From: Paramacrobiotus metropolitanus
Taxonomy: Eukaryota; Tardigrada; Eutardigrada; Parachela; Macrobiotidae
Direction of reading: 5' to 3'
DNA: 64,000 nt
NCBI RefSeq assembly: GCF_019649055.1
Contig: NW_026570327.1
Span: 1-64,000, forward strand
Every line of letters begins with the position of its first letter. Positions within the stretch are counted from its first letter, which is position 1. Position numbers and translations under genes: made by a program. Below the pieces are notes generated by a model, which saw nothing but the letters and a program-made list of their open reading frames with translations, had not been told where the DNA came from and did not search any database. Positions 8,412 to 57,960 of this stretch are shown here, piece after piece.

Positions 8412-9357
8412 TACCAAACTCCGACACTGCCAAACTCAGAATGCGAACCAACTGATGCCAAAATACTGCAACTCTCGGACTTATATAGGCGCGAAGCGCC
8501 TCCGTGTAGAAACAACCAAAAGTAGATCCGAACACAAAAGAGAAACTGCGAGAAAGTACAAAAATATAGCCGTAAAGTACGAGTACATATATCTAGAAGT
8601 ACGTACATCACTGCTACTGTACACCATATTCCGTCACGCACAGCAGACATCGCTCGCTTCCCGCATATGATCCTTCAGATCCTGCCAACTGCCGGATTTG
8701 GGCAGACCTGTGCCACCAAGACAAAGTTGTTGCTGAACAAACTGGCGACCATTAACAGCAAACAAACCTCAACAACAGTCAACCAATTCCATTCAACACT
8801 TCCGTCTTACCGAATTACTTATGGTAAATACGAGTATATAACAATCATTGGTTGGCGGCATTAAACAACCTGCTCAAACTACCCGTTTACGATAAGATCA
8901 TCATGAGTGCTTAGAATTGTGTGTAACGCGCCCTTCATCATATCTTCGCGAATTCCGCGGGGTTCCTGAGAGTAACCTCCGTCAAAGACTCAAGAGCCCC
9001 ATCCGCGCATTAATCCCACTGATAAATTTTCATAAAACCAAGCTTCACCGTCAAACAAAACCACATTCAACCAGAATTTTAATAAACATTTATTAACAAG
9101 CAGCAACAAAAAGCAAAAGACGATATAAGCCTATAAGAAAATTAAGAGTCTAACGTGTGTGCATACCGAACAAGAATACAGCAATTTGCAATATCGTCTT
9201 AGTCCTTCCACGCTATCATGCCACAATTGCCAAAATTCACGGTATCTGATTCAGTGATTCTGCAGTTCTATCGATAGCGACAATTAATGTGACATGGCCG
9301 CATGAAAAACAAGCAATGAAAGCTATCCAATGATGGTACAGTCACTACAGTGCATGA

Positions 9358-9771
9358 TTACCCAGTAAGTCCTCGCACAGTATTCCAGTGGCCGTCAAAA
9401 AAGAGGCTAATTGCCCATCGTTCTTCTTCGTACGGAAGGAATCGGAGTGTGCTGCCCTGCGGGTCCACGTTAAACATCTGTAGTTCAGCCGGCAGATGCT
9501 GTAGACCCGGAACACCCAGGATTTCGACGCTGGTTGGCCGCTGTTGCAGAATAAGATTTTGCACAGGAAGCAGGTGCAGCGCAGGTGGCCCTGTGCAGTT
9601 ATAAGCAAGAATTAATCTAAACATGAATGCAGATTGAAGCACGATTAAAAATGAACAAGAGAGCATTTACGTACTCATTGTGATAATCATATTAAGGCGC
9701 TCAAGCGCCTGATTGGCGTTATTCATATTGTCCAATGTCCATATTTCTGAATGAATGACAGAGCAAATTAT
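9358..9771 (-). CDS. Hypothetical protein, two possible exons
   Basis: I do not recognise this. On the minus strand an acceptor (CATTCAG) near 9751 opens a frame reading IWTLDNMNNANQALERLNMI, which ends at a GTACGT donor near 9672. A second acceptor (ACTGCACAG) near 9592 opens a frame that fits that phase (HLLPVQNLILQQ, LQHLPAELQMF) and ends at a stop at 9358. Together they give about 100 codons with plausible protein composition. No start codon or upstream exon was found. It may be the 3' end of a small gene, a relic, or chance. Confidence 0.25.
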
Positions 9772-9822
9772 CTCAGCTGGGCTGGCGCCTATGGCGTACC
9801 AAACGGGCCAGAGTTTATCCAG

Positions 9823-10053
9823 ACAAATGCTAATGACAAATGCTTTTTCAACATTAAACAAATGCTACTGACAAATGCTTTTCACTACCAGACAAATGCT
9901 TTCAGAAAAAAACTTTAACAGACAAATGCTACTGACAAACGTTTTTTTCGCTATCAAACAAATGCTTTTAGAAAACACTTTAACAGACAAATGCTACTGA
10001 CGAATGTTTTTTTACTATCAAACAAATGCTACTGACAAATGCTTTACACTACC
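9823..10053. repeat. Minisatellite of ACAAATGCT units
   Basis: Ten exact copies of ACAAATGCT occur in about 230 bp. They alternate in longer blocks such as AACAGACAAATGCTACTGAC and are separated by T-rich spacers. The higher-order period is irregular. Confidence 0.85.
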
Positions 10054-12028
10054 ACCGCAAATCTGATTGCGGACTTCGAAACTTTTTCACATTTAAAAAT
10101 TCCAATTCCACTCTTCCAGTTACAGGGAATTTATTGGAGATCACTGTAGTTTGGTGGGATTGGTCTGAAACCATTTGTTTGATAGTTGTACGGTTGTACG
10201 TAGCGTGGGCCCCCGAATACCTTTTCGATTTTCGCCTTTCACCGTCCCCCGTGGTCCGACGTGGGAAAACACTTTGCAGTTTATTTCCTGCACAATAATT
10301 TTGCTATGTTTGAAAAGATGTACGCATTATTGTAAACATATTATTGAATCCCGGAAGTTATTATTCTTATAAATTCCAGCAATAAATTCTTCTGAAATTC
10401 AGAAATTACTCCAAATTGTATGCCCAGAAATTCACTGCGCGACAACGTAATTGGTATTTTGTCCGACTGTTTAAAGCAGTATCATGTTTCGGACATTTAC
10501 GAAAATTATACTTTAGAAATATCTTGACGAATGTAAGTGAATGTACAGTACAGCACTATTTTGAAAACAAGCAACTGTGGTGAAAGCAAATGCAAATGTC
10601 GAGCGAAGGAAATTTTGACTTGAACCGTTGGGCCAGGCATTAAACGGAATGAACGGAGGGAAAAGTAGTACGAGTACCGAAAGTTTCAAAGTTTTTTTTG
10701 TGTACAGAAATACGAGTACGATTGAAAGGCAATGAAAAGTTCAAAAGTGGTGAACTGAGTCGTCCAATTAATAAGTTATTCTCAAATCTTCTAAACGGTG
10801 CCACCGCGAAAGTGGTTTTTGGTTGTTCCACTGACTGGTCATTAACACTGACTGCTGATAAGTACGTATTTATTACGATCGTAGTGTTATTAACGAAAAT
10901 TAATAAGTATTGTACGCAGTACGAGTAGATCTCCATTATTGAATGTTCGTGCAGTTTTCAGCCACTGATTTACTTCGCGCAATTTGCGCGGGGTCCACTA
11001 GTTCTTTTATATAGATAGATAGATATTATGGGAAATAAAACCGTAGCCATCACTGGAAAAAGTCCTGCTACACAAAAAAGAAGCACCAACTACACAAAAA
11101 CAACAAACCATGAACAAGAAAATTTCCAGTGCATTGCATTCCCTCATTCTTTCCCTTCGATCACAAATTAGGAGCACTTTTACCACTAACAAAACGTAGT
11201 AACTAGTAACGTAACACCAGTAACTAGTAACGTAACACCACTAGTAACAGAATCTATTCTGTTTGAACCAGTTTCGTTATATCCGATGATTAACTGATGA
11301 AAACTGGTTCTGATTACAACTTCGATCGTAATCCCGGCATCTAGAGGCTCCAACAACAACCGAAATCCAAAGAGATCTCCGAAAATTTCCCACGCAATAT
11401 TCGAAAATTTCCCACACTGCGTAGTATTCGCATTTTTTCACCGTGCTGACTGGGGCAAAGAATCTGCATAACGGAGAATCATGTCATTTTCAGTCAGTTA
11501 AATAGCATACAGTTACAACTAAGATTATAGTACAGTTATAAAATATATACCACCACTAAACAATTGGCCAACTAACGAAATGGTAAACCTGTTTTTACTT
11601 AATGGGAATACATTTCAAAGTTGCAAGAATCACCTTGCAACCAGCGGACTAGTGATTGTGACAGAGTTAGTGATTTACCAGCTTGCTGAAATCGAGCTGC
11701 TGTGTTTCTTCAAAACTGCTAAGAAAATATGGCTGTAAGCCTATAAAGTACTGAGAAATGTGGCCATCAGGCCATTTATATAACCATGTGTCAGCGGTAA
11801 TTTCATTATGTTCGTACACGAGCTCACTCCATAGTTATCAAAGTTCTACTTTTGCCAAACTGAAGCTGAAAAACACAAGCTTTCAGATTACTAGCCTGGT
11901 ACATCAAAACAAAAATCTCACTGTCAGAGGACAGCTATCAAATGACCCAAACATCGGTTTACAGTAGAAGCTCAACAAACTGCAACCCACATAAGAAACT
12001 GGAACACCGAAAAGCGGTCAGCAGATCC

Positions 12029-15000
12029 TCACTCCGAGCCGCTATCATTCAAACTCAGCTTTGATCTTTTCGGCTCATCGTCGCTTTCATTGCCTCCTTT
12101 GTCCATGTCCATCCCAAAATTTGCATGTTCCGTTTCTTCATCCGAAGACGCCAGTGCCCGAACTTTCTTCGGGGAGCTCTTCTCTTGCGCCTTCTCGGTT
12201 TCTTCTTCATCACTATCCATAACCCGCGCTTTTTTCTTTACCGTCTCCTTTTCCTCGTCCGAAGAAGCCAGTGCGTCTCGTCCGCTCGGCAAATTATTCC
12301 CTTCATCATCGGACGATGCAACAGTATCTTTCTTACTCTTACCACCCCCGTCGTCTTCGCCTTCTGAAGATGAGCTAGTATCCGTGTCACTGACGGTCTC
12401 TTTTGTGAGATAACGTTTTCCTTTTGGCCCAGCATATGGATCATAATCCTTGCCTTTTTCTTCATCAGAATCCGACCCAATTTCTCCTTCCCGTTGGTCT
12501 TCACGCTTTTTCCGACCAGCGAGTCTCTTCTTTCGGCCTTCGGAATCATGTTTCGATCGCTTTCGACTCGGCTCACCTAAAGTATTTAAAGGGTTAATAT
12601 CAATAACGATTTACGAGTATACGAAGAAAAACACGGCATGCCATGTCAAAAAAACACGGTCAGGTTCCGTATACTGCCAGTCGTGAAAAATTAAAAACAC
12701 TGTCGACATATAAAATATTATTACAGAAAAATATTTCTATTAAATTATTTCTTTGAATAAGCAACCCACCAGGACGGTCTTCGTAAACATCACCGTCGTT
12801 AACGAATCCATCGTCCGCGTCATGTTTCTTCGTCCGCTTACGTGGTCTGACAACAGCGTCTTCCGTTGCTGACCGCAACAGCTTCTCCTTGACTTCCAGA
12901 GCCCTGTTAAGCACTTCTTGGCGTTTCTTCATCAAGTCTTCCTGCTCCTTCAACTTCTCTTCTTCCTTGCGGACGCTTTCCTCTTGAACTCGTTTCTGAT
13001 AAGCCAATCTGGCTTCTTCCACTTTTTGACGTGTCAGTTTCTGAGCGGCATCTGTCTCTTTCGCACGATCGAGGTGATAATCCGCTTGATTCTTATAATC
13101 ACTGCACATTCGAGCCTGCTCTGAGGCTTTCGTTGGATCAATGAGAAACGATTTATCGGTTTCCAGCGCTAAATTCTCGAACATTTCCTCAGCGCCTTTG
13201 AGATCGGCAATTGCCCCCATCACATCATACAGTTCGGCGCGCGAATCTTTCAACGTAGTCACCGCCATTCTCTTCATCACTATGGCCAGATTATAACGCA
13301 CTTGCGAATTTTGCGGTACAAGATGACGGGCCAACTGTAATGTGCGTCTGGCGTCTTTAAGATCTCCGTTGAAGTACTGAGCGCGCGCAAGATACAGATG
13401 AATTTGCGGATCCAGTTGTGCATCTTTAAACCGACGAAGCGCATTTTCATACATTTTCATACCGGCAACGTACTGCTTAGCTTCACAATATTGATGACCA
13501 ATATTTAACCACAAATCCAATATGTCGGCCGATGATTCCCGCACAACTGCGAACATTTCTTTGGCTTCCTCGGTTTGACCTAACAAATGTAATCACATTC
13601 AATTTCGCAGTTACGTAGACTACTGTAGGAATACAAAATAAAAAAACAAACCCTTATCCGGAAATTTATTACATACCAAATTATGGGAATAATAACGGCA
13701 ACAAGAAAATCGTAAAGAAATATTTTTTTGCGTGAAAAATTACCGATTCTGGCCAATAACGCTCCCAATCCGTTCACCGCGTAGATATTAAACGGGTCAA
13801 CGTGCAACACTTGCTTGTAAAAGTCATACGCCCTGTCGACATGTCGTTTCTTCTTCTCCGGATCGGCTGTGCTCATATACAACGACTCCAACCAAATATT
13901 TCCCAAACTCAGCATGGCATACGTATCGGTTTTCGACTTCGGCAGCGTCAGCACCTTTTCGTATTTCTTCTGAGCCAGGACATATTCCGCTCTGGACATA
14001 TGCAGGTTTCCGAACAACAACTGCGCTACTGGATGATCTTGCCCGACACTGCCAGCCAGTTTGAACCAATCTGCCGCCTTGGGAAAGAAGCCTCGATCCC
14101 GCTCCATGCACCCGTGACGGAGATAGCAATCCAGATAACTAGGATTCTTCTTCAGAATGCTGTCATAGCACTCCCGGGCTTCTTTAAAGTCGCGAGCTTC
14201 TTCCGCCAGCCGACCTTGATTGTACGTCATCGTGGTGAGCAGTGCACCGTAATGTCCGTCGGGGACTTCTTTCTGAGCTTCTTCCGCTCGTGCTTTAGCC
14301 ATTTCCAGAAACTTCCGACTATTCGGAATTTCGTTCAGGTAGAAGTACAAAACACTGATGTTGTTGAACAGCTCGGCCGGCGCATCGTCTTGTGACGATC
14401 GCTCGTTATATATCTCCAACACCCGAAGGTACGTATTCAATGCAGAACGCTACAAGCAAACGAATTTAGCTACTAATTGCAAATATGGGAACAAGAAGAT
14501 TTCTCACCGGAGCATTTCCTTCCTGCAGTTCGGCAAACTTCATATGCGCGTCAATATCATCCGGGCACAACTCGGTGACTTTCTTCAAATAACCTTTTGC
14601 CTTTTCTCTTTTGTCGGCCTCCCCCGTTGTAAGATATAATAGTCCCAGAATCTTCAGCGTCTCAACATTATTCGGGCTCTGTGCCAAAACTTTCTCAAAA
14701 CACTGTGTCGCGCTTTTGTTATCCCCTCTCTGAATGTACATTTGGCCCAAACCATACCACGGCAAAACAAAAGTGGCTTTAGCAAACTGGGTTGCCTGAT
14801 AATAATACTGGAATGCCTGATCGAAGTCCTCCTTGTAATGGAAACTTCTTCCCAGCATATACGCCGATTCGGCCTTCAGGGTGTCCGAATACGACGTCTG
14901 GAATGCCACTGTGGATAGATTGATGGCCTTTTCGGTTTCGCGTCGATAAAAGAAATGATCCGCTAAAAGGTTTAGATTGATCGGATTGGATCTGTCCAGT

Positions 15001-16954: not shown

Positions 16955-19900
16955 ATGGATCCCAATCAAGAGCGGTATGTATGTGGCTTGTGCTCAAGAA
17001 ACGATCGACTGTGCTCAAGAAACGTTTTTGCGACTACGATCGATCGACTGTGCGAACGATCGACTGTGCTCAAGAAACGTTTTTGCTCGTGACTCGAGCG
17101 TGATTCTGCTTATCGCTGAGTAATAATTGCTTAACTATTTGAAGTGTTTATCATTCCATGGCTTCTGCTGGAGTATTTGACGTCATTTTTTCTACGGTCC
17201 TTTAGTTTATTACGAATACTCGTATTAGTCGTTCTCTAAATTTCTGTTTTTGTGCAGTTTGTCGCCGAGTGAGCAGTGTCGCCAAACGAAAATCTATCGC
17301 GATGTCGCTGAGCACCAGTGGCCGATCGTGTACAGTCCCGAGTATAATCTGTCCGTTATGGGAATGGAGAAGCTCCATCCGTTTGACGCGGGAAAATGGG
17401 GGAAAGTGTACGAAAAACTGAAAAGTGAGCTGATTATTAACATACTGGTTTTTTGCGTCGGTTCGGACTCCTATCCCTCCGATCCGATGCATTTTGCCTG
17501 CAGATTTATTATTTATTTACGTTCGTCACTGAAATAATCAGCAGCACTATCTGCATTGACTTGATCAGCTGATATGAAAACAGATTGACTTCAGCGTGCG
17601 TAAGAGCATTCTGTGAAGTAGATCTAGATAAGAGGTTGTTATTTTATTAGAAATTTTACTGATATTATTTTTATATTGGATGATTTTCCTTATGTCTTTA
17701 TTTTGAATTTTTATTTTATTATTATTTTGATTTTAAAGGAGTTGTGTCTGGTTGTAGCCATGAGAATTGTGAATCCCAAATATTGAATAGATGATTTGTT
17801 TTACCGATAGAAACTCGAATTGTATGTCCAGCGAATGGTTTAGGAAGCGTACAGTACGATGTTGTACATTAATTACGCTGGTTATTCTGCAGAACAGGGG
17901 ATGATCGGCGATGATACAGTTGTGGAGCCCATCGAAGCATCGGAAGCGGATTTGTTAGTGGTGCATACGCCGCGTTATTTGGAAAGTCTTACGGTAGGTA
18001 TTGACATGATTACCAACTGGTTTGATAAAATCTTTTACTTATGCCAACTACGCAGGATAAGTGCTACACTGGGGTGATGGAGATTTAGGATTAGGATTTT
18101 TACTGCTTTAAATTTTAATTTCGTACGAAATGGTCGAAGTGATAGTAGCAGGCAGCATCATAGTGTCCGTGCTGGTAATTGCCGGGAGCAGCATTTTACC
18201 TTATTCGTATCAGTTTTATCCGTATTAGTTTTCGCAAACTATGTTGAATTTGATAAATAATTCCCAATATAATTGACTGAAGTAAATCCGTTTTTAGTCG
18301 AGCGTTGTGGTGGCCAGAATTACGGAAGTCCCACCAGCTGCTATGCTCCCGAACAGTGTGCTGCAGCAGAAATTCTTGCGACCCATGCGAATGCAGACCG
18401 CCGGTACAATTCTGGTATGTGTTTTCTGAAACTCCTTTTTAGCCTTTGACCAGTGCCGCACTTTGTTAGAATTGTTCTGGCAACACTTTTCGACACTGTT
18501 ATTAACGGTTGCACTTATTTGTTGATTGATTAGGCTGGCAAATTAGCATTGGAACGGAAATGGGCGATAAATATTGGTGGAGGTAGATACTACAATACGA
18601 TACGCTCGTTTCAAGTATTTTTGTGAAAAGTTGAATTTTTTGATTTTGTTATCTTGTTTTGAATTTTGTTGTTTTGATGCTGTGCTAATATTAATGGGAG
18701 GTGTTCAAAATGCAGTACGTACTTTTTCGCTAATGTTACTTTGTATTATCCTGTCCTTCAGCCGGCTTGAATTGTTTTTTAGGGTTTCACCACTGTTCCG
18801 CTGACAATGGCGGCGGTTTTTGTCCATATGCGGATATAACGCTATGCCTGCACTTTTTGTTTCATCGTGACTTAATCAAGAAAGCTCTCATCATTGATTT
18901 AGACGCCCATCAGGTTAGTCCCGGGCTGGATATTTGTGAATTGTTGGCTGTTTTTCAGTTACCGTAAAGTTTGTTTGCCGACGCCGTAAAACGTAAATAT
19001 GAAATGCATTTGCGTACATGCAGGGAAATGGGCATGAACGGGATTTCATGAACGATGACCGAGTGTACATCTTGGATATTTACAACGAATGGATTTATCC
19101 TCATGATTCCACAGCAAAAAGTATGCTTATTGGTGCTCGCTTTATTTGCGTCGAACGAGCAAACATCTTATTGTTAACAGACACTAATTTAATTCTTTTC
19201 TTTTGCTACAAAGTTTTGTTGTGGAAGCGAATAACATAAGATCGATGTCTTCGCTGCAAGCGCTTTCTCGGTTTGATTTTCACCTTTTGCGGTTTTTTTT
19301 ACAGGAGCTATCAAGCGCAAAGTGGAACTGTCTTCGGGTACAGCCGATGAGGAATATCTGGATAAAGTGCGAAGGTGACGATGAAGAGTATAGTGCGAAT
19401 AACGAAGGTTAAATTACATGATACCAATACCTCGTAATTACTTTTCCTATGGTTAGGTAATCTTATACAATAAAGAGTTTGGAAAGTTGAGTGTAAAAAT
19501 CTATTTTCTTCGATTTTCCTTTTTAGAAAAGAGTTTGTGAATTATTTATTGTTTGCGCAGAATAAACCGACATATATTGAAAGCGCGCTCAGTTTTACGC
19601 ATTGAGTATGCAGATTTACGCTGTACTGTATACTAGTAATGATTTTGCTTTGACCTAACCCTTATTTGAGTATTTATTTGCCGTTTTAGTCAGTTGTGCA
19701 ACGTATCCTAAATAATTGAAAATATTGAATTGCAGACATGTTGCTGGTGCCATGAACGAATTCCCGGCGAATATTATCATTTACAATGCCGGTACGGACA
19801 TTTTGATTGGAGATCCTCTAGGCGCAATGAACATAACACCAGAAGGGATTATCACGCGCGACCAGATTGTCTTCGAGGAAGCCGTAGCGCACAGCATTCC

Positions 19901-20057: not shown

Positions 20058-21410
20058 TGCCTGTTGTATTATATTCTGCACGAATGTGAGCATCGACTTC
20101 TTGATCTTCAATCTTGCCGAATCATAATTAAAGGTACTTACTCGTATTTGTACATTTTGTAACGGTGTAACTATGTGATCTGCAAATTCTGCATGCTGTA
20201 CAGAGATGTGATGCTGGTCATAAACCTCTAGAGCACTTTAATAATTTAAACGGTGTTTGTTATGAAGTTGTTCAATGTGGAAAAGTTGCTGTGGATTTGC
20301 GTGGTCATAATATTTTGTGATACATCATGTTTTCTGCACCATTGGAATTTCAGTCGAAGATTACCTCGTTGCTACTTTTGTGGTATATAATTACAAATAA
20401 ATTATTTAGTACAATTATTTGTGATAAAATAAGCGATATGTGCAAAACTGCAAATCTGATTGCAAATGCAGCTTTGCCCGGTATCGCTACGAGTAGCCAT
20501 TTTTTGTAGCCATGAGTACTTAATTAATTTAATGTACGTTTCAGCTTGCTTTAATACCAAATTTCGTTTAGTAGGTAGATTACTTAGGTTTGACTGAATG
20601 TTAGAAAGAAACTTTTTTGTTTTCTTCGATATTATTTTTTGTTGATTACGTGTAATCAGTGAAATTACAGTACAATGCAAATATAATGCAGCAAATTAAA
20701 TGTGTTTTGCATAAAAAATTAATACGGTTATACGTTATACTTATCGTTAGTTGCTGGACCTGCATGGTTTTCCGTATTCCGTAAGTACTTTGTATACGAG
20801 TATAGATCTATCGTAAAATAAATAATTGGATGAAATGGTCAAGTACTTACACTACCTACACTGACACACACTTCTACATCGTATGTAAACGGCTAGTGCT
20901 TGTCATAAAATTGTAGTTTTATGGATTGTGCTCGTATTGTTGGGTTTCGAGCGAAATGACGCACAATCAGCAGAAAAGTGATAAAGACGGTAGATTCACC
21001 TTATGCTTTGACTTGTAACAAGCGGATCACGATTGACGAGCGTTACTCATCGGTTCCCTAACGTGTACGTACATGAACTTGAAATTTTATCGAACACTCA
21101 CGAACAGCAAGGAAGTGCAGATGACTGCAGCATGCCGCAATGGGCGACAACATGCTGTAACATGTTACGGGATGCATGAATTGTCGGCGTGCCTGGGATA
21201 CGACTACCGGTTTAAAAACTGCACGCATCACATAAACGCAAGCGTCATATGAATTTTTGTAAATTATCCTGACGCGTTCTGGCTCGTCTGGCGTAGATTT
21301 GTGAGCTCGCATTTATCCTTTATTCCGTTGTTCGATACATTTTGTTTTCATCCAGTCTTTAGACGCGTTAAAAAGTTTATCTGATTTTTATATTAATTAC
21401 TGTATTGACG
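20058..21410. other. Intergenic between HDAC11 and PARP3
   Basis: About 1.35 kb between two plus-strand genes. It should contain the HDAC11 3'UTR and the PARP3 promoter. It carries three copies of the TACTCGTA/TACGAGTA 8-mer (20139, 20488, 20795). No gene or clear core-promoter element was recognised. Confidence 0.5.
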
Positions 21411-28268: not shown

Positions 28269-28379
28269 GACACTCTGCCTCGTGGTCCACTCAGCCAGAC
28301 CGGCTAGCGGGGGCGGAAATGCTCGCCGAGGAGTGCTGTTCCTCAAGAAGGGAATTCTAGGATGATCTGTAATAATTCT

Positions 28380-40300: not shown

Positions 40301-42073
40301 CGGTGATGTACGGAACAGCCGTATCCCATTAACATTTGCTGGAGTTCATGGCCTGAGTCCTTGTACAGTTATACACAAGATCCATAATCGTATGTGCTGT
40401 CTGCAAATTCCAATCCGTGCCAGCACAGACGCTGGTTATTTGCTCTCATCCGCATCACTGCCGTTTTACCGTTTGACGCTCGAATACAACCCGGGCGCCG
40501 GCATGTTGCGCGATTCCCGGTTGCAGCCGCGGATCGAAAGACGGTTTGGAGGAACATCTTTTCCCCGGAAAATCTCACCAGTCACAAGCAATTGACATAA
40601 CCATTTTGCCTCGCTTCGATTGACGGATGATGTAACCGTGTACGAATGTTCCCCCATCCAGTCATCCAGTTGAAACAATTTGTTAACATTTCGTTTTTTC
40701 CTAGTTACTGCTTCACCGAACAGTTCTGTCGGCGATTCGTCACACAAGTGGCTAAATAAAACTTTAATCTTTCATGATCTGAATCGGTCTGTTTATCGTG
40801 ACGAGGCCGTTAGGGAAACGTTGAGTGCGAATGTTGTAAAGTGTTGAAATGTAGCAATAAATTATCCGAAATTATTATGGTATTGAGCTCATAAAGTGAT
40901 TAAGTATTACCGTACGCGCTCTGAGCTCTCCAGCGCTGCAGACACTGTACGCGGTATTTACCGTGCGATCCGTCATCTTAATTTCTTACTTTAAAAAATT
41001 AATTATTCAAAAATTAATCACATAAGTATGCTTGGTATTCCAATATAAACAAATACATTTTCAACGAATGCCATTTCAAAGTGCATCCAGCCCATCTGCC
41101 GATATAATTATTATTTAGAAATCTTTATTTCGATTATTCCTTCCTAAATTAAAATTAAAAATTCAACGTTTCAATGGATTCTTGATTTCTGAATTTCTGT
41201 ACTCCGATTACCAAAATTAACACAATAATTTTGATATTATTTTTATAATTTTTGTAAGCAACTGTGAACGCGGGTAACGTCAAAATTCCTATTCAAAAAT
41301 TTCAGAATTCAACTTAACCAAGACATATACCAAAATAACCATAATGTCACCCAGAAAACTCGCACAGTTGCACAGCGCAAAAATTAATGGATAAGTTGTT
41401 GGTATTCCTGTTGGAAAAGCGCTGACACGGATCTGATTTATCACGGTCATACTCGTAGAAAACGAGTGGCATGATATTTCGAATGTTATTAGGCAATTGA
41501 AATGACGGTTAACACCTCGTCCAACCCATTTGGACTCAGTCTGTTGCTAATTTGACGATCATTTTTTACACGACTTCGCCGTACTAGCCCTACTCTAACC
41601 GACTAGCAGCGCTAAGAAAATCTTTCACAAATCCAAGGCATACCCATTAGTCAGTCAAGTAGAAAAATGTTCCACAGATGTTGACAAGCTACAAACTTCT
41701 TTGCCGTAAATTCTTCTACTCAGACTTAATTTAGCCCACTCATAAATTAAAATTCCTTCCTCTCAATTCGCATTGTTTTAAATTACAAACACTGTAGAAA
41801 AACAGATCATGATCCATGATCCACAATGTCAGGTTGGTGCCTCGAGCTTCTTTTCTATGGGATCTTTATGTTACTTCCTCCAGGAAGAAGACCACAAAGT
41901 ATACTGCCATGTTAATGCAACAAAAGGAAAGAAGTTTAGCAAGACTGCTGACGAAGGCCACTGTAAACACTTGACTCGTTAGCATTTCAAAATAATTTTA
42001 GCAACCGTACAAAAACCAGGGCGTAATTAGCGAAAAAAACTAACAGAAAATGGTCGACAGATAACAAGCGGTT
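28380..42073. other. Gene-poor 13.7-kb intergenic region
   Basis: No gene with family support was found between the receptor and NARS1. Frames are short, and splice-compatible chains with protein-like content were not seen. It holds a duplicated ~28-bp motif at about 28672–28722 (CGTCGT[GT]GATAT…AAATAC[AT]TCATACG), short GC-alternating tracts (36634–36644, 38603–38615) and several TATA-like strings (for example 36717–36730). One cysteine-rich minus-strand frame is at 28937–29170. The 8-mer TACTCGTA is nearly absent (two copies, 28727 and 41450). Much of it may be regulatory DNA or introns of genes not recognised here. Confidence 0.45.
28937..29170 (-). CDS. Cysteine-rich open frame, doubtful
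   Basis: A 77-codon minus-strand frame has seven or more cysteines, in SCVDGDKKC, GCMRWC and ADECCTQY. An acceptor-like TTTTGTGTAG lies just upstream. There is no ATG at the beginning of the frame, so it would have to be an internal or last exon. It sits on the same strand as and upstream of the receptor gene, but no link is shown. Function is unknown and it may be chance. Confidence 0.15.
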   Translation of the reverse strand: MCRLIIRSVSSFSKASCVDGDKKCYFDINLLSTLARLIEPLQGCMRWCTDSDFHPADECCTQYHTLKIFGIDVMPLS

Positions 42074-45000
42074 TTATGGTTTACACCGTTCAACGAATCG
42101 TGGATACAGCGTACAATCGCGAATATGATACCGGTTGCACATCCACGTCAAGTAGCGCTCCAATCCCAATCCGTAGCCACCATGGGGATGGGTGCCGTAC
42201 TTGCGCAGATCCAGGTACCAGTAGTACGTATCCGGGTTCAGACCGTTCTTCTTAAAAGCCTCCACCAAGTCATCGTACTTCCACATCCTCATCGAGCCTC
42301 CGATAATTTCTCCTACGTTGGGCAGCAGCATATCCACCGATTCGGTCAGACGGGGATCCTCTGCGCAGCGCTGCATGTAGAACGCCTTGATCTCCGCCGG
42401 AAAACGACAGAGCATAATCGGCTGAAAAAACAACCAAACACTCCTTTTAACCGGATAACAATCAAAGTAAATTCGCTTGTTGACACAAACCTCGTTAATC
42501 TGATCAGTCATTTTACGCTCAGGAGCTTCCGGAATGTCCTGTAAGGAAGATAAAAAATAAAATAAAAAGGATAATCTCTAACAAAGGAAAAATATATGCT
42601 CTTTAAGTTCTAAATGACTGGACCACAAACCTCTCCAAATTCGTAAAATGTCCCATCATCTTTCGTGATACTGTGCTCTTTAAGGTACGTAATGGCGTCA
42701 GAGTAGTTCATCCGCCGGAATGGGCGCTTGGGCACCTTGAAATCCTGCGAAAAGTAGGACAGTGTCAATCGACATTCTATTCATTACACTTCAACCACTG
42801 AGCGACAAGCTAACCGATTCCGATAGAAAAATCAACATTCTGGTGAAAAGTCTAAACCTCTGTTTACTGGGTTCAAGTCCTTGATTAAATAAGCAAACGG
42901 TGAATCCATCACTCGCTGCGCGACATCCACAATCAAATCCTCCAATCGATCCAGCATCTCATCAAACGTAATAAACGGACACTCAGCCTCAATGTGCGTG
43001 TACCTGGAAAAAGGCCACCTTAGACACTGGACCAGCGACTAACAAATCAGAGCCTACTCAGCCAGATGACGTCGGGTCCTTGACATTTCCGCCCGATACG
43101 ATTGCGCAATGCAGTACGTATCGCCCAGGACCGGGATGGCCGTCTCCAGGTACAGCTGCGAACTCTGCGTCAAGTAGGCCTCCTCGCCAAAGTAGTTCAA
43201 CTTAAACAGCGTCGAGCCGCCCTCCACCTGCGTCTGCACGAGCGTCGGCGGGCTGATCTCAAAATAGCCGCGATCGCGGTAATGGTCACGGAAGGCGTTG
43301 ATCAAGACAGATCGGGCTTTCATGACCTTCGACAACTGAAGAGGAAGCGAAATCACAACAATCCCCAGAAAAGAAAACAAGTGGGCGTGTAAATTTTGTA
43401 CCGTTTCTCCGCGTAGATGAATGTGACGGTTATCCAGCAACACGTCCACACCCGATTCTTCGTTCAGAAGGTTGTCCACACCGCCGGCCGGTGATGCACC
43501 GATCAGCTCCCAGTAATCCACTTCCATTTCATGCCCGTCCGGAGCCGTTTGACCTTCTGGAACCGGTTTGATCACACCGTACAGAAGCACGGCTGCTTCC
43601 GTAGCTAATGTCACGGCTTCGTATGTTTGGCACTACAATATCACGAACATGCGAACCAGAATCACAACATAAACAAATAAAACAGATTACAGAAAAACTG
43701 ATATCGGAGCAAAACACAACAGTGAACAGATTCGGTATAATATTGCCCAACCGGACCGGAAATGAAATTTCTATTCAAATAACGACTAACACTGCCGTTT
43801 CGTACTAGTTCACCGGCTGTGATCACCAAACAAGATTTCGGAAACAGAAATTCTCCAGCGTATTTCGTTGAAAAGGAAATACTAGCAATTATCTGGCGAT
43901 CTGATTTTTTTGCGTATTTTTTTCCAAACTGGCACTGCTTGCAATCGTGCAGCAAATTGTATGATGCGTAGTACTTAGACTTCAATCTCGACACTAGTTC
44001 ACCGACTGTGGGCACTGTAGAGATGTAGACTGTTAACACTACAATTGACCACATGCTAAGCATAGTGCACGAATGCTCTTACCATTTCACCGGTCAAGAC
44101 GCACTGGAGATAACCAGTTCCATCGCGCAGCGTGATGAACCACAGCACCTTCCCTTGTCGTCGCAGATGATGCACCCATCCGTAGATCTTCACGCGAACA
44201 CCACGGCTTTTTGTTGCATCGCGGATTTTTATCTAATCACAACAAATCACTGCAGATTAAACGGATTGTCGACGCAAAATTATTCCTAGCTTTACCTTGG
44301 TAGCTGCGGGAAGACTAGGGTTTTCCTTGATGGTGACGGATTTGGCCTGCTCGAGATTCTTTTCCCTGCGTTCTTTATCCTCTTTTTCTTTCTCCGCCTG
44401 TTTGTCCGCTTTTCGCTGATCTTGTTGGTACAATTTCTTGGCTTTCTTCAGCGCCGAATCGGATATGGGCAGCCATTTCTGGAAGGGAAAAATATTTCTG
44501 TGATTAAAAAATCCACGTCACTATACAATATTATGGCAACGTTAACTTCCGGTCTGAACGAAGTGTTCGCAAAAAGCAAAAAAGCCACAGCAGGTACAGC
44601 CAAAAATCTTTAGCCACACTGTTTCAGCCTTCCATTGAACAGATACTGGACACAGCAAGGGATGCTAAATTAGTACTGCACTGAAAATTGGTAGCATTAA
44701 CGGTGCCACGATAAAGTATCCCAGTAAAATATTAAATAATCATCATCAATGCACGGAAAACGTGGCAGTTTTCAGAATTCACCTGAAACTAAAAGCAGTA
44801 CTCGTACCTGCTGGGCATCGCCGCCATCGGCACTCCCTTCTACCATAATGTCCACATCATTTCCGTCAGAATGCCGCAGTGCCTAAAGTCAAATTTTGGT
44901 CCAATTGCATACGGACAGATCACAGACAGTTCAAAAACCATCGGAACTCGGAAGTTCTTCGACCATATGCGATATCGTCTTCATTTTTGGTGCTGCTTAC

Positions 45001-45226
45001 GCAAATGGCAGTCTTGAAAGGCTTTCCCTCCGATCCATTTCCCGTCTCGTCACTGCCGTTTTTATCCGAGATGTAAAGCGTAGCTGCAATAACGGAAGGC
45101 TTTGATAGTTAAGAAGCGTATGAGTACAAGTTCACTGTTAAAAACCTGGAATACACTCAGTACAGTTCAAAATCTTCGACGCATGAAGGACAACAAACCT
45201 AATTTTTTCGTAGCTTCTTCAGTCAT
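42074..45226 (-). CDS. NARS1: Cytosolic asparaginyl-tRNA synthetase
   Basis: This class II enzyme charges tRNA(Asn) with asparagine in the cytosol. Eleven exons in consistent phase are 45226–45199, 45083–45001, 44882–44808, 44478–44296, 44232–44083, 43632–43402, 43335–43058, 43003–42868, 42744–42631, 42538–42491 and 42421–42074. They give 557 residues (human 548). The N-terminal extension ([14 protein letters not shown]…KPFKTA) and the charged helix ([19 protein letters not shown]) are as in animal cytosolic enzymes. Next come the OB-fold anticodon-binding domain ([21 protein letters not shown]) and the catalytic core. Motif 2 ([15 protein letters not shown], about 328–343) and motif 3 ([13 protein letters not shown], about 523–535) are intact. 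The 28-nt first exon (MTEEATKKL) was chosen by phase and homology. It is divergent from INTS3. Confidence 0.95.
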
Positions 45227-47178
45227 TTCTTTCGTAAAGACAGATCAACACTAACAATTTAGAGACCCACAGACACGCAAAATTCAATCGCGAAAATAAT
45301 TAAATTTGTAAATTAAAGAGAAATGCGATTATTCCTTTTATGCACCTCCGCAGAACACAAACCGGAGAAATTGCAAGTCTGATTTCGTACGCACTTGTGA
45401 GTAGTGGGTTCGCGATTACTGTTAGCGTAGCGATGTACACCATAAGGGAACCCTGCCCCAAATGAGGATAGCTTTTTATGGAGGCGGAAAACGCAGCATG
45501 TTCTTCGCTACGTCGGTGGGTCATAGATTAGATTGGCTACGAGTAAGTACGTAAGTACTGATGCCACAAATGACCGGTTTACATCAGGCTACGACGTGTG
45601 TAGGACTGTGTGAACATCCGATGCCGCACTCGTGTACACCGGAACCGGGTTCAGCGTGGTATTGCAAATTTGCAATGGTCAATGAGATATCATGCTTTAT
45701 ACCGATACTACAACTGTCTGTGAGTACTTTTTTGTAACCTTTTGACGGTCCGAAGAAACCAAAACAAGAAAAAGCCGTGTTTCGCGGAATTGCGATACAG
45801 AAGAAGGGATAAGACGGATACGCAGAGCTCTACAGTAGAGGCTAAGGCCTACAGTAGAGCTCTAGTCGGAGGCACTCGTAGTCGTCTGACTCGCTGGCGC
45901 AATCGCGCCGTACTCGTAAGTACTGATTTTGTTACATAGGCGCCTTGCCTTAGGACAGCAGCACCAACGCCACGGCCTCATGGGGAGCGTTTCTGCAGTT
46001 TCGGACTTCCGGAAACTTTCCCAAAAATTTTGGGAATGCTTACGGTGAGCAAGATTGCTAAGATTTTTATAGTCCAACAAGACTCCATTATTGTGAGCTA
46101 GAATAATGGAGTCTCGATGGACTATGAAAATTTACTGCAGATAAACTGTGTTGGCAAGTTTAAAGAATTCATTTTAAGTTAAATCACAGTACTTCCCAGT
46201 TCCTACTTCCTACTCGTAGAGAGAGAATCGGAAGTGTCCAAAATTTTACTGTGTATAAACTATAAACCAGCCTGAAATCCTGAGGCATTATACAACCGGT
46301 AAGGCATGTAACAAACAATTTACGAAGTGATTTTTGTTTCCATTGATATTCAAAATTCTCGGACTTTGTATCCCACATCGGGCCACACACAGTCACACAC
46401 TCGTTTATGAATGCCGATTGCCGAGCGCCGACATGACTATTCAAACTTGTTTTACCGTATAAAGAACGCACAGACGGTACAGCACATACTATTAGTGCTT
46501 ACTTAAAATGTGGAGACTTCAGTAGGTACAGTGCTGTTCTTGTTATGGGAATGGATGTGTTTGTTGATGCCCTGCAGAATTCAGACCAATCCACAGTCTC
46601 GCTGTCAGCCGGCTTTGCGAACTTCCCGCGTGCGGGGCACCTAGTGCCCATTAAGACCAAAATTCCTGATAACACATACCGAAGTTTGGGCTTGGAAACA
46701 GGATTGTACGTTACTGGTATCTCATAAATTGCAATGCAATTATGCAACCCATAATCACTTTTGTGTTCTGATTGTGAGCTGATGATGTTCTCCGGTCAGT
46801 TAATGGCGAACAAATGAAAAAGAATGGTATTAAACAAGCCACCCGCCACGGGGCAGCGCTCCTAAACCAAGTTCAGATTGGGTATATTTTGCGTTCATTT
46901 TCGCGTATACCAAACGCTTACAGCCATTTCGACTGTAAGGAAGCCTATACAGGGATGCAGCGATTGTCACGTGATGCGTACCGTATTTTTATTGCGGGTA
47001 CATCCATCGTGACTGCAGATCGTTTCAAAGCTTGATTTTCACTGGTTGCTAGCAACCGTGAGCTGAATTTGGAACACAGCCAGGGCTGTTGGCTCCGCCC
47101 ACTACTGCAGGCCTCGATGGAAATCTAACATTTTGCGCCTATATAAGCCGAGTGCGGGCGAATCGCGAATTAGTCTTG
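45227..47178. promoter_or_regulatory. Region between divergent NARS1 and INTS3
   Basis: About 1.95 kb must hold both promoters. TATATAAG at 47140–47147 lies about 40 bp before the chosen INTS3 start and could be its TATA box. It contains three TACTCGTA/TACGAGTA copies (45538, 45911, 46211), an imperfect inverted repeat GAGCTCTAC(A/T)GTAG at about 45823–45862 and a strong hairpin at about 46063–46127. No further gene was recognised. Confidence 0.5.
46063..46127. repeat. Hairpin-forming inverted repeat
   Basis: ATAGTCCAACAAGACTCCAT and its near-complement ATGGAGTCTCGATGGACTAT form arms of about 24 bp with about two mismatches and a short loop. It resembles a solitary MITE or foldback remnant. 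Confidence 0.75.
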
Positions 47179-50100: not shown

Positions 50101-53100
50101 ATCGATTATCCCCCGGGCGTTGATCAATAAGATTATTAATTTTGCGGTCTGTAATTAGACCTAATATTTACGTGAAAGGCACATAGTACTCCTAAGTGCG
50201 TCTGCCGATTCATTTGGAGGCTGCGGAGCGTTTAGGCGCCCGCATTAACTAGGTTGCACAGATTGCAGCCATCAAATTCAGCATGCTTTTTACGCTGTGA
50301 TGATATTACTGCTCTGTGCGTTATGTCATTTATGTGTTGTGTGTGCCCCACATTACGAAATCTGATATAATTAATAAATGCGGTAAAGCGGCGTTGTAGC
50401 TGGTCGCATAACTTGATTGTTTTTCTCATTGGTTTTACTTTGCGGTTATCGTTCAAACACTGCGTAATCACAATAATTGAGGTAAAAGTGTAAGTTGAGA
50501 TTGTAAATTTTGCTGTTTTCTGCATTTGACATTCGATATTTTCACATTTGGAACGGCTTGTTTTTGATCACTTTCGTGGATTTTGACTTGTTTAGCGGAT
50601 ATCGATGGTTAAACAAGGGAAGCCTATCATTAGGTTTTAGTAAAACCATTTCCTAATTGGTTTAAAAAAATTAGGCTCCAAAAATTTATTGTGTATCGAT
50701 TTGTTGTGTATCGGTTTATTGTTTTTCAGTTTGAGTGTTTTATCTTTGGATTGTGTTATATGGATTTGGCTTTTCTTTTGCCGTATTGTTTTATATGTTT
50801 GTTTGCGAAGACACGTTGTTCGCGGTGCTTCATTTAGTTACTTTTAATACTTACTCTTAGTTGCAGGAGTTGCTGTGAATGGCGGTCCCGGTAATATCAA
50901 AATCGATCTCGATTCACTTCCATCACCTGCATCATTGCTGGGCTCTATGCCGGAATTGAAAACCGACGACGATGAGCCGATGGATGATTGGCCGGAACCG
51001 GTGATGCAAAATAAAACCCCCAAAGCAGCCGCTGTCGCGATTAATCACAAACCCATAGCGCGTCATCATTCCATCTCTGCCGCATCGAAAGTGAAACGGA
51101 GTCAGGAGCCATCTCTGGATGAATGTATTGGGATGCTACCGGAGACAATGCAGCCGTTTCTGTGTGCGATGCGCGATGGGTAATTACTTAATTATTGATT
51201 TTAAACGAATTCGCCTTGGGATTAATTGGATGCTTGTGCACTTGCAGGCCGGTGGAAGAGAAATGCCAGATCATGGAGGAATTTGTTGATGACGTTATTA
51301 ACAAGGTAAGCAAGCGGTCGAGATAATCATGGTCACAGCTTCCAGGTTAAAGTGACGTTAACGCGTTTTTTCCTGCAGGGAAGAAACTTTGATTCTGAAC
51401 AGTATGAAGCCGTCTCGTTATTAGCAAGATCGTTGGTGTTAGTATTGAAACCATATTACGACGACTTCCGGTTACCGCAGACGATCAATGAAGAGTAAGG
51501 TTGTCCTGTTCACATCGCCGGTTGGTTCTAATTCTGACACTTTGAAATTGAATAGGACTCTGGATGACTCTATCCAGTCTCCTCTGTTCATTTTGTACAG
51601 GTGAGGCTTTTGCCGATAATTGAGACTCTGTTTAAAACTATCACAGATCTGTTTAAAACTAATTAAAACTATCAGTCTCCTAACTCTTCCTTAAGTATTT
51701 GATAGCTTGTATGTGGTTTAGGTTTTTGAGTTCGCTTACAAATCAATTATAGTATTATATAATGTTTTTGGTTTTTGATAAGTCTTGAGTACTTATTTCT
51801 CTTCATGTAAATCCAGTTTTGCTTCCGTACTCGTATAAATGCTGCACTTGATGTCTGCATTATTTAACAGTAATTGCAGTTTCAGTATTTCCCATATTTC
51901 AGTATTTCGCATTTTTTCCGAGTAGTTCTTTTGTGCGTTGATTTGAATGTTTTAATAAAATATTAGGTAAATTGTAAAATAGATGCAGTAATTCTGGCAG
52001 CTGATTGTGACTGATCGTGGTTTAAGCACTTATTTATAGCCCAAATTTGAACGTTTATACAAATCGTTAATGCAAGTATTATGCAGGCGCCTATGGGAAG
52101 AAGAAGACGGTTCATTGCCTCGAAAGCGTGTAATCGATCTGCTGGTGGCGATGTACCCATTAATGCCGGTTCTTGGGTATTTGATCATCTATTATCTGTA
52201 TTATCGCAAAATGTCACCTTCCTGGACAACGACATCCGATGCGCGGGATGTAATGGCGGATTACGAAGAATTCTGTAGTGAATATCTTCGGCGTACGAAG
52301 CAGGAGGAGATCTGCGAAGCTAACTACACAGTGTGCATAGCCGAAGATTTGGAAGCGTGTGGTCAGCAAGACCATGCCATGCTGACAGAATTGGTGCCAT
52401 TTTTGTACAAAGAGAATCCCCGTATTGCCATTGACAGTGCATTGATCATGAAAACTGTCATCGGGTACATTGATGCCTTTGAGGTGCAGAGGTTAGCGTG
52501 TTTGGTGCTCAAGCGAGAACTGATAATGCTCTCGGACAAAGGATGTGTGGATGTTATAAGTGAGTATCTTGATGGACAAAGTTTTGCATTTATTTTTGTG
52601 AGCGTCTCTATGTTTTCCTGGTAATTTGTAATTGAAATCCCAGTGTTGTGTATACTACGTAATCGTAATTTACACCGCGTCTTATCAGTCATATGGTACG
52701 GCATTTCGAGTAGCGAACCTGTCTATGGTAAATCAAATTCATAATTTTTTGACTTTTCTCTTTTACAGAGGATAGTTTAACATGGGAAACAATCGAACAG
52801 ACCTTCTTTTGGAAGTTATTATTGGTGCACGACTTAAAAATAGATAATATCCTAAAGGAAATTGTTGCCTACATTGACTTCCGTCATCACCCTGAGGCGA
52901 CATTGCAAGTGATGGAGCTGCTTCGCAATGATCAGTACGTAAAGGAATTTGGAATTTTTTTAAAATGCCAGCTCCGAAAAAAAACAATGTTGTATAAAAT
53001 GTATAAATGAATTTGCAGTCCTCGGGAAGCCTTAGTGGCGGAAGTTTTCCGCCGTGACCCGGTTGAAGTGGAAAGCAATCCGTTTATTACTATCTGCCTA

Positions 53101-53961
53101 CACTGGACCAAGAAAAATAACGCAATGTTTACCACTTCTTTAAGCAGTATCATTACGAAAGCCGGTGCGACTAACAAGAAGCGTGTTGTGAAGTGAGTTC
53201 ATGCGGAGATTAAATCCCGATTACAATGCGTGTGCTAAAACATTCTTTTGTATAGCAAAGCGACAGTGAACGTGAAACCCGACTTGACCATCGATCAGGT
53301 ATTAGCACATTTGGATTTGCTCCGACTGTATATGGTGTCATTGGATCAGAAGAATGACAAGCGAATGCGGGATTTCGCATCAGGTAGATAGTTTTTTCTG
53401 ATTGAAGGAGCTGCCGTCCAGTGGAATTGATGTTGCAGGTTTATACGCCACTCTCTATAACAGTAACGTTCTGCTATCTCTACGAACAATTAAAGCGGCG
53501 TTGGCCTCAAACCTGAAAGAGAAGTAAGTCAGATGAGATGTCATGTAGAGAATATTTGGATCAATTAACCGAAGTATTAATCACTCTGACCAGTATGCAG
53601 GACGTTCGTTATTTGAGCCTTTGAGGAGAATGCTTACTTTGTTGTTGAAATCGCACGTTTGGTTTCGGTTTAACCGGCGTGAACATTAGAAATTTTCCCA
53701 AGATACTCGTAAGTGATTGATATTAATCTTGATTTTTGATACAGGTTCAGAGAAGTGTTGCAGTTAGTGGAAGATCCTGAAGATGACGTTAAAGCCTCCC
53801 CTGGCAAGAAAGGCAGCACCGCCAAGCGTGGTCGAACGAAAGCCGCGGCCAAGAATACCGTAGCCAAAGACAGTGATTCGGATCGGAGTGATGAGGAGGA
53901 TGACGTGGCTCCCGTGAAAAGCAAGAAAGCCAGGAATAAGTCGCCACCTGTGGAAGACTGA
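47179..53961 (+). CDS. INTS3: Integrator complex subunit 3 (INTS3, SOSS-A)
   Basis: INTS3 belongs to the Integrator complex on RNA polymerase II and scaffolds the SOSS single-strand-DNA-binding complex in break repair. I read 22 coding exons and 1099 residues (human 1043). Exon starts are 47179, 47631, 47877, 48014, 48286, 48418, 48927, 49130, 49352, 49567, 49735, 49888, 50867, 51248, 51379, 51556, 52087, 52769, 53019, 53256, 53439 and 53745. Family matches include DKEVDFCLDLLRNK, IHPTNEILGSDVLQRW, LALFYDWMLFDPQGE, EKRVVGSVAPI, FDSEQYEAVSLLARSL and HLDLLRLYM. The C-terminus is Lys/Asp/Glu-rich (AKRGRTKAAAK, SDRSDEEDD) like human INTS3. The third exon start (47877, or 47871/47880) and the N-terminal ATG are the weakest points. 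The intron at 48350–48417 appears to use a GC donor. Confidence 0.93.
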
Positions 53962-54928: not shown

Positions 54929-55003
54929 CTGCTATGCGCCCCCACAAACCGGGCGCACAGAATTTGGCTTTGCGCCCCGAATTTCCGGGCGCCGAAATAT
55001 CGA
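54929..55003 (+). repeat. Left terminal inverted repeat
   Basis: About two subunits ending in CCGAAATATCGA, mirrored by TCGATATTTCCG at 56147. Confidence 0.75.
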
Positions 55004-56143
55004 CGATTTGCTGTTTTTCCGAAGGTTTTTTATATTTTATTCGGCTTCTCTTATTAATTATTTAACCACTCAATTTTCCTGTTGTATAGTCAAATGCGTT
55101 GTACGTATTGTTTGATGAGTTATTGCTTAAACTGCGATACCAGAATGCACCCAAACTTTAAGTAATGTGTGCTTTCCAGAAAAGAATCTAGAGAAGCAAC
55201 AGCAAAGTTGTTATTTATTGTGTCAGTCCTGAAGTAGCAGTTTAGTTTCACCCCCCTACAGCCGTAAAGGTTGCAACGCGCATGAAAGTAGGACAGTTTA
55301 CAATACATATGCCTCAACCTGTGGATTAATTTGCGTTAACGCAGACTACGGCAACAACAGCGACGACGGGTAATTAATGAATGAGCTTTGTTTGGGCATT
55401 GGGTGAAGACACTAGCACCGGAACACGGGTCAACGGCGCAACCGGCCCCGTCGTCCTGGTTAAATAAATCCCTCGTTTCCTCGCAAACGAGGGTAGACGG
55501 GAGGGAAGAACGACTTGATACATGTAAATCAACTTTACTTCGACACAACAGCAACAAAAGTGTACTGAACGCAAATATGCAATCGCTATGCGACATCGTC
55601 AAACAATTTCATTACTCCCCTTTTTTAATCAGAGCTACTACATACGGCGCACTGGCGCAGTATCCGGATGGGCATCCCAACGGCTTTTCTCGGCTGGACA
55701 CTGGTCAAACAAGTCGTCCAGCCTTGCAACCACCTCCGCTGCGTGAACCGACCGGAATCACCTTTTCTGTTTTGCTACATTTTACGACAGTTCTGCTAAT
55801 TCCATTTTGCCACAGTTTTGTGCATGGAGTGGACATCCGTGCCGTCCTAGATAACCTCTAACAATTGTTACGCACAGAATCTGATAAACGTGTTCTTAGC
55901 CTTACCTTGCTGTAAAGTGGCTGGAAATCAGGATTTCTCAGACATATTCCGTGCATGTGATGTTTTGAACAACCTCTTCAGTAGACCAGGCGATAAAAAG
56001 GGAATACACCAAACGAAAACTTGGCTATTACAGGTTCTCAAATTCTGCAGTGCTCTCTCAGCTTCTGCTCTCCTGCAACCTTAAGGGTTAATCGACTAAA
56101 AACATTAAGTAAAAACAATCACCTATTGGAAAAAAACATAAAA

Positions 56144-56262
56144 ATTTCGATATTTCCGCGCCCGGACATTCGGGGCGCAAAGCCAAATTCTGTGCGCCCG
56201 AACACTCGGGGCGCACAGCTAAATTCTATGCGCCGATTTGTCGGGGCGCACAGCCATTTCGT
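56144..56262 (-). repeat. Right terminal inverted repeat
   Basis: About three subunits, with GGGGCGCA at each subunit boundary. It is the complement of the left end plus one extra ~34-bp unit. Confidence 0.75.
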
Positions 56263-56726
56263 AAAATAAAAGGTGAAATGTACATTATATGTAAGTAATT
56301 TATTTATATAATAATTTTTTCAAAATCATTTTTTAAGTTGTGCAGCGTCACAGCGTGCTACTTTTCAACGTGCTTCCGCCACATGAGGACGGCTACGTGG
56401 GTACAAGCACGTTGTTATCACAGCATTGGATGAAAACTGAAGTTTGAGCGGTGAACCGCGGTCAGCTTGTTTTTTCGTACTCGTAGTCTCGTACATGTAC
56501 AATTGTACATATACAATCGTAAGATAGCCTGGGTCAGTCGCGAAGCTTTTCGGGAGTTTGGTCGAGACTTTCGAATACCAATTGCTATTTTGTTCAGTGG
56601 ATCTGTTGATCTCATCAAATTTCTGTTGTTCTTTATGCGTTGGACTTGATTATCGCCTTGATTTTGTTCGGACTCTCGACCGTTCTCTTGGCAGAGTACA
56701 AGTTTGACAAGAACTCACCATCAGAA

Positions 56727-57960
56727 ATGTTGCGATCACGAACCTTTTACGACGCAAATGGCGTTCTTCGTGAGCGAAAATTCTTATTTACCTTTACAGC
56801 GGAGTTCTTGCTGCGGGAAGTGTAATTTAATTGTTATCGTTCACAGGGACGGAGCTGATTCCCATCGCACAGCCACGTGTTTTCGACATTTCACGGGAAA
56901 GCGTGAAAATCGTGGGCTACTCACAAATCCGTATTGTGTGCACTGGCACTCTGTAAGCGTTCGCGGTAAAATATGTAGGAGTTGAAGAACCATACTTGAT
57001 TAATGTCGATTATGCTGCATTACTAAATTAAATTTTTTATTTATTGTTTTTTAGTCCTCGTGATGTGGATTTGCCCTTGTGTGGCGTCATCAAGTTGGTA
57101 AGTCTGGACCTCGAACGTCGTAATATCAGTTCTATAAATTGAGCTTACGCTCAAGTCGTTTCCAGCTGATGCAGGGTTATATTAGTATTAGTTAGTTTCC
57201 ATTCAGTATAAATTGCAGTTTTAATTGTTTTAGTGTTACAGTGACGCACTCACAAATTTTGTACAGTGTTGATTGGTTTTTGCATTACAGTTGCAAGCGC
57301 ATCCGCTGTTCCTCCTTTGCGATAATCGTATGACAGTGCAGGATCTGATGGGCTACATGAAGGAGCATTACCGGCTGGCAGATGCGCAAATCGTAAGGCC
57401 GTGTCAATTGATGACTGCTGCTTATCACTCAACAGTCAACAGTATCTAATACAATGATTGGTTTATCGTTTGTGCTGTCCAGGTGTTTACGAAAAATGGT
57501 GAGGCACTGGCAAGCACGGAAACCATTCGCGACTGGATTAACAGTATTAAATGGCCGAAAGTAAGTACTAGTAATTTCGGTTTGTTTTTAATTTAATTTC
57601 GGAAATAATTAATTTAATTTTGTTTAATCTTTTATTTATTTCAAATTTGCGTCTGGTAACATGTTTGTATACGAGTAGCCAAAATACAGCCGTATTTTGA
57701 CCCTTCTTGTAATTATTAGTACTGGACCGTGTGGTGAGTAAACATTGCGTTAAATATTTTGTTTGCAGGAGCCCGGAATGTACGGGGAGGTGTGTTACAG
57801 TTTGAATCTGGATATTCGCCTGCCGGGGCCGGGTCCGGGTGCTCCGCAGAGTTTGCCGGAATTAGTGCGAACTTTAAGTAGTATTGCGCCAATCAACAAG
57901 TTAACTGTGACGTTGGAGTTTGAGGATGGAGAAAAGATGGTTATTTCAGGAACATATTGA
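56727..57960 (+). CDS. Small protein of unknown function, possible RAWUL/ubiquitin-like fold
   Basis: I do not recognise the family with certainty. Six exons in consistent phase are 56695–56769 (first ATG at 56727), 56847–56952, 57055–57097, 57291–57392, 57483–57560 and 57769–57960, giving 187 residues from that ATG. The middle part (LFLLCDNRMTVQDLMGYM, then KNGEALASTETIRDWINSIK and a later YSLNL) has the spacing of a β-grasp fold. It recalls the RAWUL domain at the C-terminus of Polycomb RING proteins. No RING finger was found upstream. A good acceptor (TTCTCTTGGCAG) before the first listed exon hints that the gene starts further left, perhaps beyond the inverted-repeat element. Gly/Pro-rich LPGPGPGAPQ follows the domain. 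A candidate AATAAA is at 58126–58131. The gene structure is convincing; the domain assignment is not. Confidence 0.65.

Follow-up and report, generated by a model that had tools for sequence, protein, structure and literature searches.

An exact octamer in strong excess in a 64-kb stretch of a tardigrade genome: a candidate recognition site of a DNA-binding protein

Short words that recur in genomic DNA have been described in several systems. Among animals, DRE (TATCGATA), the site of DREF in insects, is an 8-bp promoter word, and the motif CTGTTTCA of the Caenorhabditis elegans piRNA genes is a short word scattered over nematode introns and intergenic DNA. Among fungi, SomA is a Flo8-type factor. 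Chromatin immunoprecipitation sequencing in Aspergillus returned for SomA the motif GTACTCCGTAC with a frequency of 119/476, and the sections of that study drawn on here place its binding upstream of genes, one peak falling between two genes of opposite orientation (PMC7667024). In cyanobacteria the octamer HIP1 (GCGATCGC) is strongly over-represented and, as characterized in an excerpt of the source, is a perfect palindrome of unknown function and, in some species, a target of methylation (PMC3219970). Here we analyse another such word, the octamer TACTCGTA (on the opposite strand TACGAGTA), in the first 64,000 nucleotides of contig NW_026570327.1 of the tardigrade Paramacrobiotus metropolitanus (assembly GCF_019649055.1; hereafter the window), and find it in an excess that points, with somewhat better than even confidence on our part, to the recognition site of an abundant and strictly specific DNA-binding protein, kept by selection in cis-regulatory DNA.

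A first-pass annotation of the window had listed 20 copies of this octamer and put the excess at about ten-fold. Our count on both strands recovered 20/20 of these exactly where they had been placed, with no extra copies, and shows the estimate of the excess to be right and, if anything, low, the value being 12-15 fold. Markov models of orders 1, 2 and 3 predict 1.3, 1.6 and 1.7 copies, and those of orders 4 and 5 predict 2.8 and 6.2, the order-5 value being inflated by the 20 copies themselves (palindromic words count double in the table behind these expectations, in the per-position table and, for observed and expected alike, in the sum over neighbouring words given below). Dinucleotide shuffles (n=100) gave a mean of 1.34 copies and a maximum of 5; simulations of order 3 (n=60) gave a mean of 1.2 and a maximum of 4, and those of order 5 (n=60) a mean of 5.8 and a maximum of 15. 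Given that the octamer was originally found by looking at all words, we compared its z with the best z attained by any word in simulated windows as a look-elsewhere check. Relative to the order-2 expectation it has a z of 14.5, the highest among complex 8-mers with at least six copies in the window, while the best complex 8-mer of the simulated windows reached 7.5 in 60 order-3 runs and 11.9 in 60 order-5 runs. When repeats were masked and all words built of 4+4 bases with gaps of 0-15 were ranked, TACTCGTA was again the strongest (20 vs 1.9, z 13.2), the runner-up having a z of 7.8; among the gapped words alone (gaps 1-15, masked window) the best z was 6.8, as against 13.2. The excess in the 64-kb window is real. 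It amounts to one copy per 3.2 kb, with 11 copies in one half of the window and 9 in the other, in DNA with a G+C content of 42 per cent and a CpG observed/expected ratio of 1.16.

Examination of the word itself revealed that the excess is sharply confined to the exact octamer. Its 24 single-substitution neighbours total 55 occurrences against 42 expected, a mild excess, and at any given position the three alternative letters sum to 4 to 12 occurrences as compared to the 20 of the intact word, so that none of the eight positions can be dispensed with. The octamer is a near-palindrome in which the half-sites TAC and GTA flank an unequal TC/GA centre. Within the TAC-N-GTA frame with a spacing of two, the TC/GA centre alone stands out (20 vs 1.6), any single word with another central dinucleotide being present in at most 5 copies; as for perfect palindromes, the window has 2 copies of TACTAGTA and 0 of TACGCGTA. 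A weaker relative of this frame, TACAGTA/TACTGTA, is found 28 times against 14.7 expected. The copies lie in both orientations, with 9 on the forward and 11 on the reverse strand, and the columns immediately adjoining the octamer hold 0.07 and 0.04 bits of information. The longer form GTACTCGTA, which had been taken to recur, is no real extension, as the preceding G is present in 7/20 copies and its column carries 0.07 bits. No longer consensus emerged among the 30 flanking columns listed, of which four (-11, -9, -8 and, just, -4), each rich in A/T, come up to the 95 per cent level of random columns. The words AGTACT and AAGTACT were considered as companions of the octamer (8 occurrences vs 1.4-1.6), yet a best companion word as good arose by chance in 22 per cent of permutations for 6-mers and 34 per cent for 7-mers (300 each).

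Of the described systems whose protein is known, the SomA motif comes nearest, as far as the excerpted description goes: it shares with TACTCGTA the TAC...GTA near-palindrome with an unequal TC-type centre, and differs in being fungal and in having the three-base centre TCC in place of the two-base TC. The core word of the SomA site, TACTCCGTA, has 0 matches in the 64 kb, and a link to the octamer through animal relatives of SomA/PtaB is conjecture. HIP1 offers a likeness of behaviour, in that the exact tardigrade octamer stands at 20 against 1.3-1.7 with its neighbours mildly raised; HIP1 itself is present in 1 copy, a chance level, and TACTCGTA is not palindromic. DRE resembles the octamer as an 8-bp regulatory word of animal promoters, with a different sequence; its 2 copies in the window compare with 0.94 expected, and 26/100 shuffles had as many. 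The nematode piRNA-gene motif likewise differs in sequence (5 copies in the window vs 3.3 expected), and no fixed partner element was seen in the window beside the copies of TACTCGTA.

To describe the placement of the copies (Table 1) we used gene models from a home-made ab initio program that was trained on the window itself and whose settings were changed by hand twice. The first-pass annotation had noted that the copies are nearly all non-coding, and 0/20 indeed overlap the approximately 10.7 kb that these models lead us to take as coding (p 0.026 under an even spread). This coding mask includes stretches added by eye (6144-6410, 6427-6600, 47589-47760, 47969-48241 and 52753-52960) and omits the first exon of NARS1 (39 bases), the final two exons of a PARP-like gene and all but one exon of a fifth, weak model. 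The copies also appear partly grouped: 7/19 gaps between neighbours are shorter than 400 bp against 2.46 expected (p 0.005). A pair lies at 8.6-8.8 kb, and trios lie at 10.7-10.9, 20.1-20.8 and 45.5-46.2 kb. Two of the trios lie upstream of predicted gene starts, one at the PARP-like gene and the other at NARS1/INTS3, and 7/20 copies fall in the 1.5 kb preceding four gene starts as against 2.2 expected (p 0.004). Only two copies are present in the region 24001-44000, and the largest gap is by itself not unusual (p 0.29). Grouping and upstream bias, both weakly shown, agree with regulatory DNA.

Table 1. Positions of the 20 octamers in the window and their surroundings
Feature	Position	Strand	Context
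Octamer TACTCGTA	8578..8585	-	outside the inverted repeats of a transposon-like insert
Octamer	8829..8836	-	251 bp from the copy at 8578
Octamer	10669..10676	-	in trio at 10.7-10.9 kb
Octamer	10711..10718	-	in trio at 10.7-10.9 kb
Octamer	10920..10927	-	in trio at 10.7-10.9 kb
Octamer	12612..12619	-	within predicted CTR9 intron 12567-12769
Octamer	17217..17224	+	1.0 kb upstream of predicted CTR9 start (16192, -)
Octamer	20139..20146	+	in trio 0.6-1.3 kb upstream of predicted PARP-like start (21411, +)
Octamer	20488..20495	-	in trio upstream of PARP-like gene (20.1-20.8 kb)
Octamer	20795..20802	-	in trio upstream of PARP-like gene (20.1-20.8 kb)
Octamer	28727..28734	-	gene-poor stretch
Octamer	41450..41457	+	about 0.6 kb past predicted 3' end of NARS1 (-)
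Octamer	44799..44806	+	at the start of the predicted first NARS1 intron; a single base away from a 39-base first exon with weak support; overlaps predicted splice donor
Octamer	45538..45545	-	in trio between divergent NARS1 (-) and INTS3 (+)
Octamer	45911..45918	+	in NARS1/INTS3 intergenic trio
Octamer	46211..46218	+	in NARS1/INTS3 intergenic trio
Octamer	51828..51835	+	predicted INTS3 intron
Octamer	53704..53711	+	predicted INTS3 intron, 33 bp before predicted last exon (53745)
Octamer	56478..56485	+	DNA without a gene model
Octamer	57670..57677	-	intronic only if a low-scoring fifth gene model is real

Three readings had been offered for this word at first pass, namely a site for an abundant regulator, a chromatin or replication mark, and a favoured mutational product. 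The regulator site is the best supported of these because the word is exact, lacks a flank consensus, occurs on both strands, lies outside predicted coding sequence, and shows some grouping and some upstream bias, both of which vary with the distance chosen; the mutational product is not favoured; and a general chromatin or replication mark is not separable here from a protein site. Under the reading we prefer, an abundant protein would recognise all eight bases of TACTCGTA with very strict specificity, and selection would retain the word in upstream regions and introns, partly as groups of two or three. The TAC...GTA half-sites round the unequal TC/GA centre would be compatible with a dimer or with a zinc-finger array. 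We infer that the word is bound by a protein, is maintained by selection and may act on transcription. Several observations weigh against such a protein site. Most binding sites tolerate mismatches, so that near-consensus copies should be clearly enriched too, whereas the near-matches of TACTCGTA come to 55 against 42. The grouping weakens when gaps shorter than 1000 bp are counted (8 vs 5.5 expected, p 0.12), and the upstream bias varies with the distance allowed (3 vs 1.5, p 0.18, within 1.0 kb; 7 vs 2.5, p 0.009, within 2.0 kb; 7 vs 2.9, p 0.019, within 2.5 kb), the 400-bp and 1.5-kb thresholds having been picked after the positions were seen. Moreover, 13/20 copies lie outside the upstream 1.5 kb of any modelled gene, the permutations single out no companion word around the sites, and the evidence comprises the letters of one window, at one locus in one species.

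The sharpness of TACTCGTA is unusual for transcription-factor sites, and because of this an all-or-none process comparable to that behind HIP1 stays in consideration. The exact octamer would then be kept or regenerated throughout non-coding DNA by a modification enzyme, repair or replication, rather than retained as ordinary transcription-factor sites; we regard this as unlikely, though worth keeping in view. The little-enriched neighbours speak for it, as do the spacing of one copy per 3.2 kb, the presence of copies in predicted introns and 3' flanks besides upstream DNA, and the precedent of HIP1 itself, which the available extract of its description presents as an octamer in great excess whose function is unknown (PMC3219970). 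Against it stand the grouping of the copies (p 0.005 at 400 bp), their scarcity between 24001 and 44000, and the CpG ratio of 1.16, which gives no sign of methylation-driven CpG loss; HIP1 is furthermore bacterial, perfectly palindromic and, per that same extract, targeted by methylation in some species, while TACTCGTA is no palindrome. That the octamer should be an outright animal equivalent of HIP1, present every few kb in non-coding DNA across the genome and preserved to the letter by an all-or-none reader that hardly tolerates a single altered base, appears to us rather improbable. Similarly doubtful is that the excess is local or due to chance, the word being moderately or not at all enriched genome-wide: the data do come from a single window, the word was selected out of all words, and order-5 simulations fitted to the window with its copies reach 15 copies in 60 runs, but the z of 14.5 surpasses the simulated maxima of 7.5 and 11.9 even when the search over all words is allowed for, and both halves of the window contribute, with 11 and 9 copies.

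If local sequence or hairpin-templated repair favoured the word as a mutational product, this would account for the near-palindrome TAC TC GTA and for the concurrent excess of the related words GTACAGTA (14 vs 2.3) and AGTACGTA (11 vs 1.9). Templated correction would, however, yield perfect palindromes, of which there are just the 2 copies of TACTAGTA and none of TACGCGTA, and context-driven mutation should clearly raise the neighbours above the 55 vs 42 observed; we consider this origin very improbable. Even less credence goes to the octamer being the only conserved part of a dispersed short mobile element. With about 13 neighbours in excess beside about 18 exact copies in excess, a burst at roughly 8-9 per cent per-base divergence would fit by our arithmetic, but pairwise BLAST of the 60-bp flanks of the 20 copies found a longest common stretch of 14 bp including the octamer (two copies 42 bp apart, whose flanks overlap, being set aside), and none of the listed repeats and tandem arrays of the window, compared by eye, overlaps a copy. 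We know of no element that inserts only eight bases. Descent from a transposon family had been named in advance as a check; run within the window, it found no common flanks, in line with the earlier remark that the flanks differ and share no repeat, and such descent is unlikely.

The window does contain a transposon-like insert. Between inverted repeats of about 127 bp (6774-6900 and 8272-8398), which are 90.6 per cent identical and carry sub-repeats of 35 bp in tandem, lie 1.4 kb whose long open frames appear transposase-like by eye; the two frames tried had no match in Pfam. On one side of this insert is an RRM-encoding exon (6427-6765, reverse strand), on the other are the octamers at 8578 and 8829. 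A search with 16 bases of the inverted repeats matched 4 viral and 54 prokaryote stretches, which we take as chance, since by our estimate any 16-mer would find some 120 matches in 257 billion bases; the octamer is present in 3/58 of these loci.

The gene finder returned four convincing models and one weak one. The CTR9 model has five introns, and one of its exons matches a solved CTR9 homolog chain with E 4e-77; a search of viral contigs with the CTR9 exon recovered no relative. NARS1, the cytoplasmic asparaginyl-tRNA synthetase, scores 743 bits to the best solved chain, and its model contains two stretches absent from the solved chains that are probably unspliced intron. Some synthetase residues (e.g. 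one 11-letter stretch) are as in chains 2xti and 2xgt, which we take to be from Brugia, and unlike those of the best-scoring chains, even though these two shorter chains give lower scores (579 and 578 bits). The gene families of the window point to an animal; taken with the five CTR9 introns, the G+C content and the CpG ratio, the synthetase residues would on the letters alone tentatively suggest a nematode, possibly from the Trichuris group. INTS3 was identified by the Pfam domain HEAT_Ints3_C on two exons, with its start (47600) estimated by eye. The remaining model encodes a WGR domain and reads as PARP-like by eye; its first intron holds an 84-bp direct repeat (21752-21835 and 21903-21986, 94 per cent identical). 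NARS1 (-) and INTS3 (+) are divergent, and the approximately 2.7 kb between them (44846-47600) holds three octamers. Scans of the window for tRNAs and against Rfam at the gathering threshold gave 0 matches.

Other words are likewise over-represented in the window. GTACAGTA/TACTGTAC has 15 copies between 613 and 62929 (14 after masking), some of them inside a 25-bp tandem unit at 2591-2642, and the count given above for AGTACGTA is also that after masking. CGGAAGTC, which resembles an ETS-type site, has 11 copies (masked, 9 vs 1.0), including those at 16463, 18323, 39649, 46004, 47727 and 51463; the copies at 16463 and 46004 are upstream of the starts predicted for CTR9 and NARS1.

In the literature searched we found no description of TACTCGTA as a genomic motif, and we do not claim that it is absent from print. 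Should the octamer prove to be enriched genome-wide, sequence alone would have revealed the site recognised by a major DNA-binding protein of an animal lineage. Its sharpness raises the further question of why near-matches are not retained, unlike those of most transcription-factor sites.

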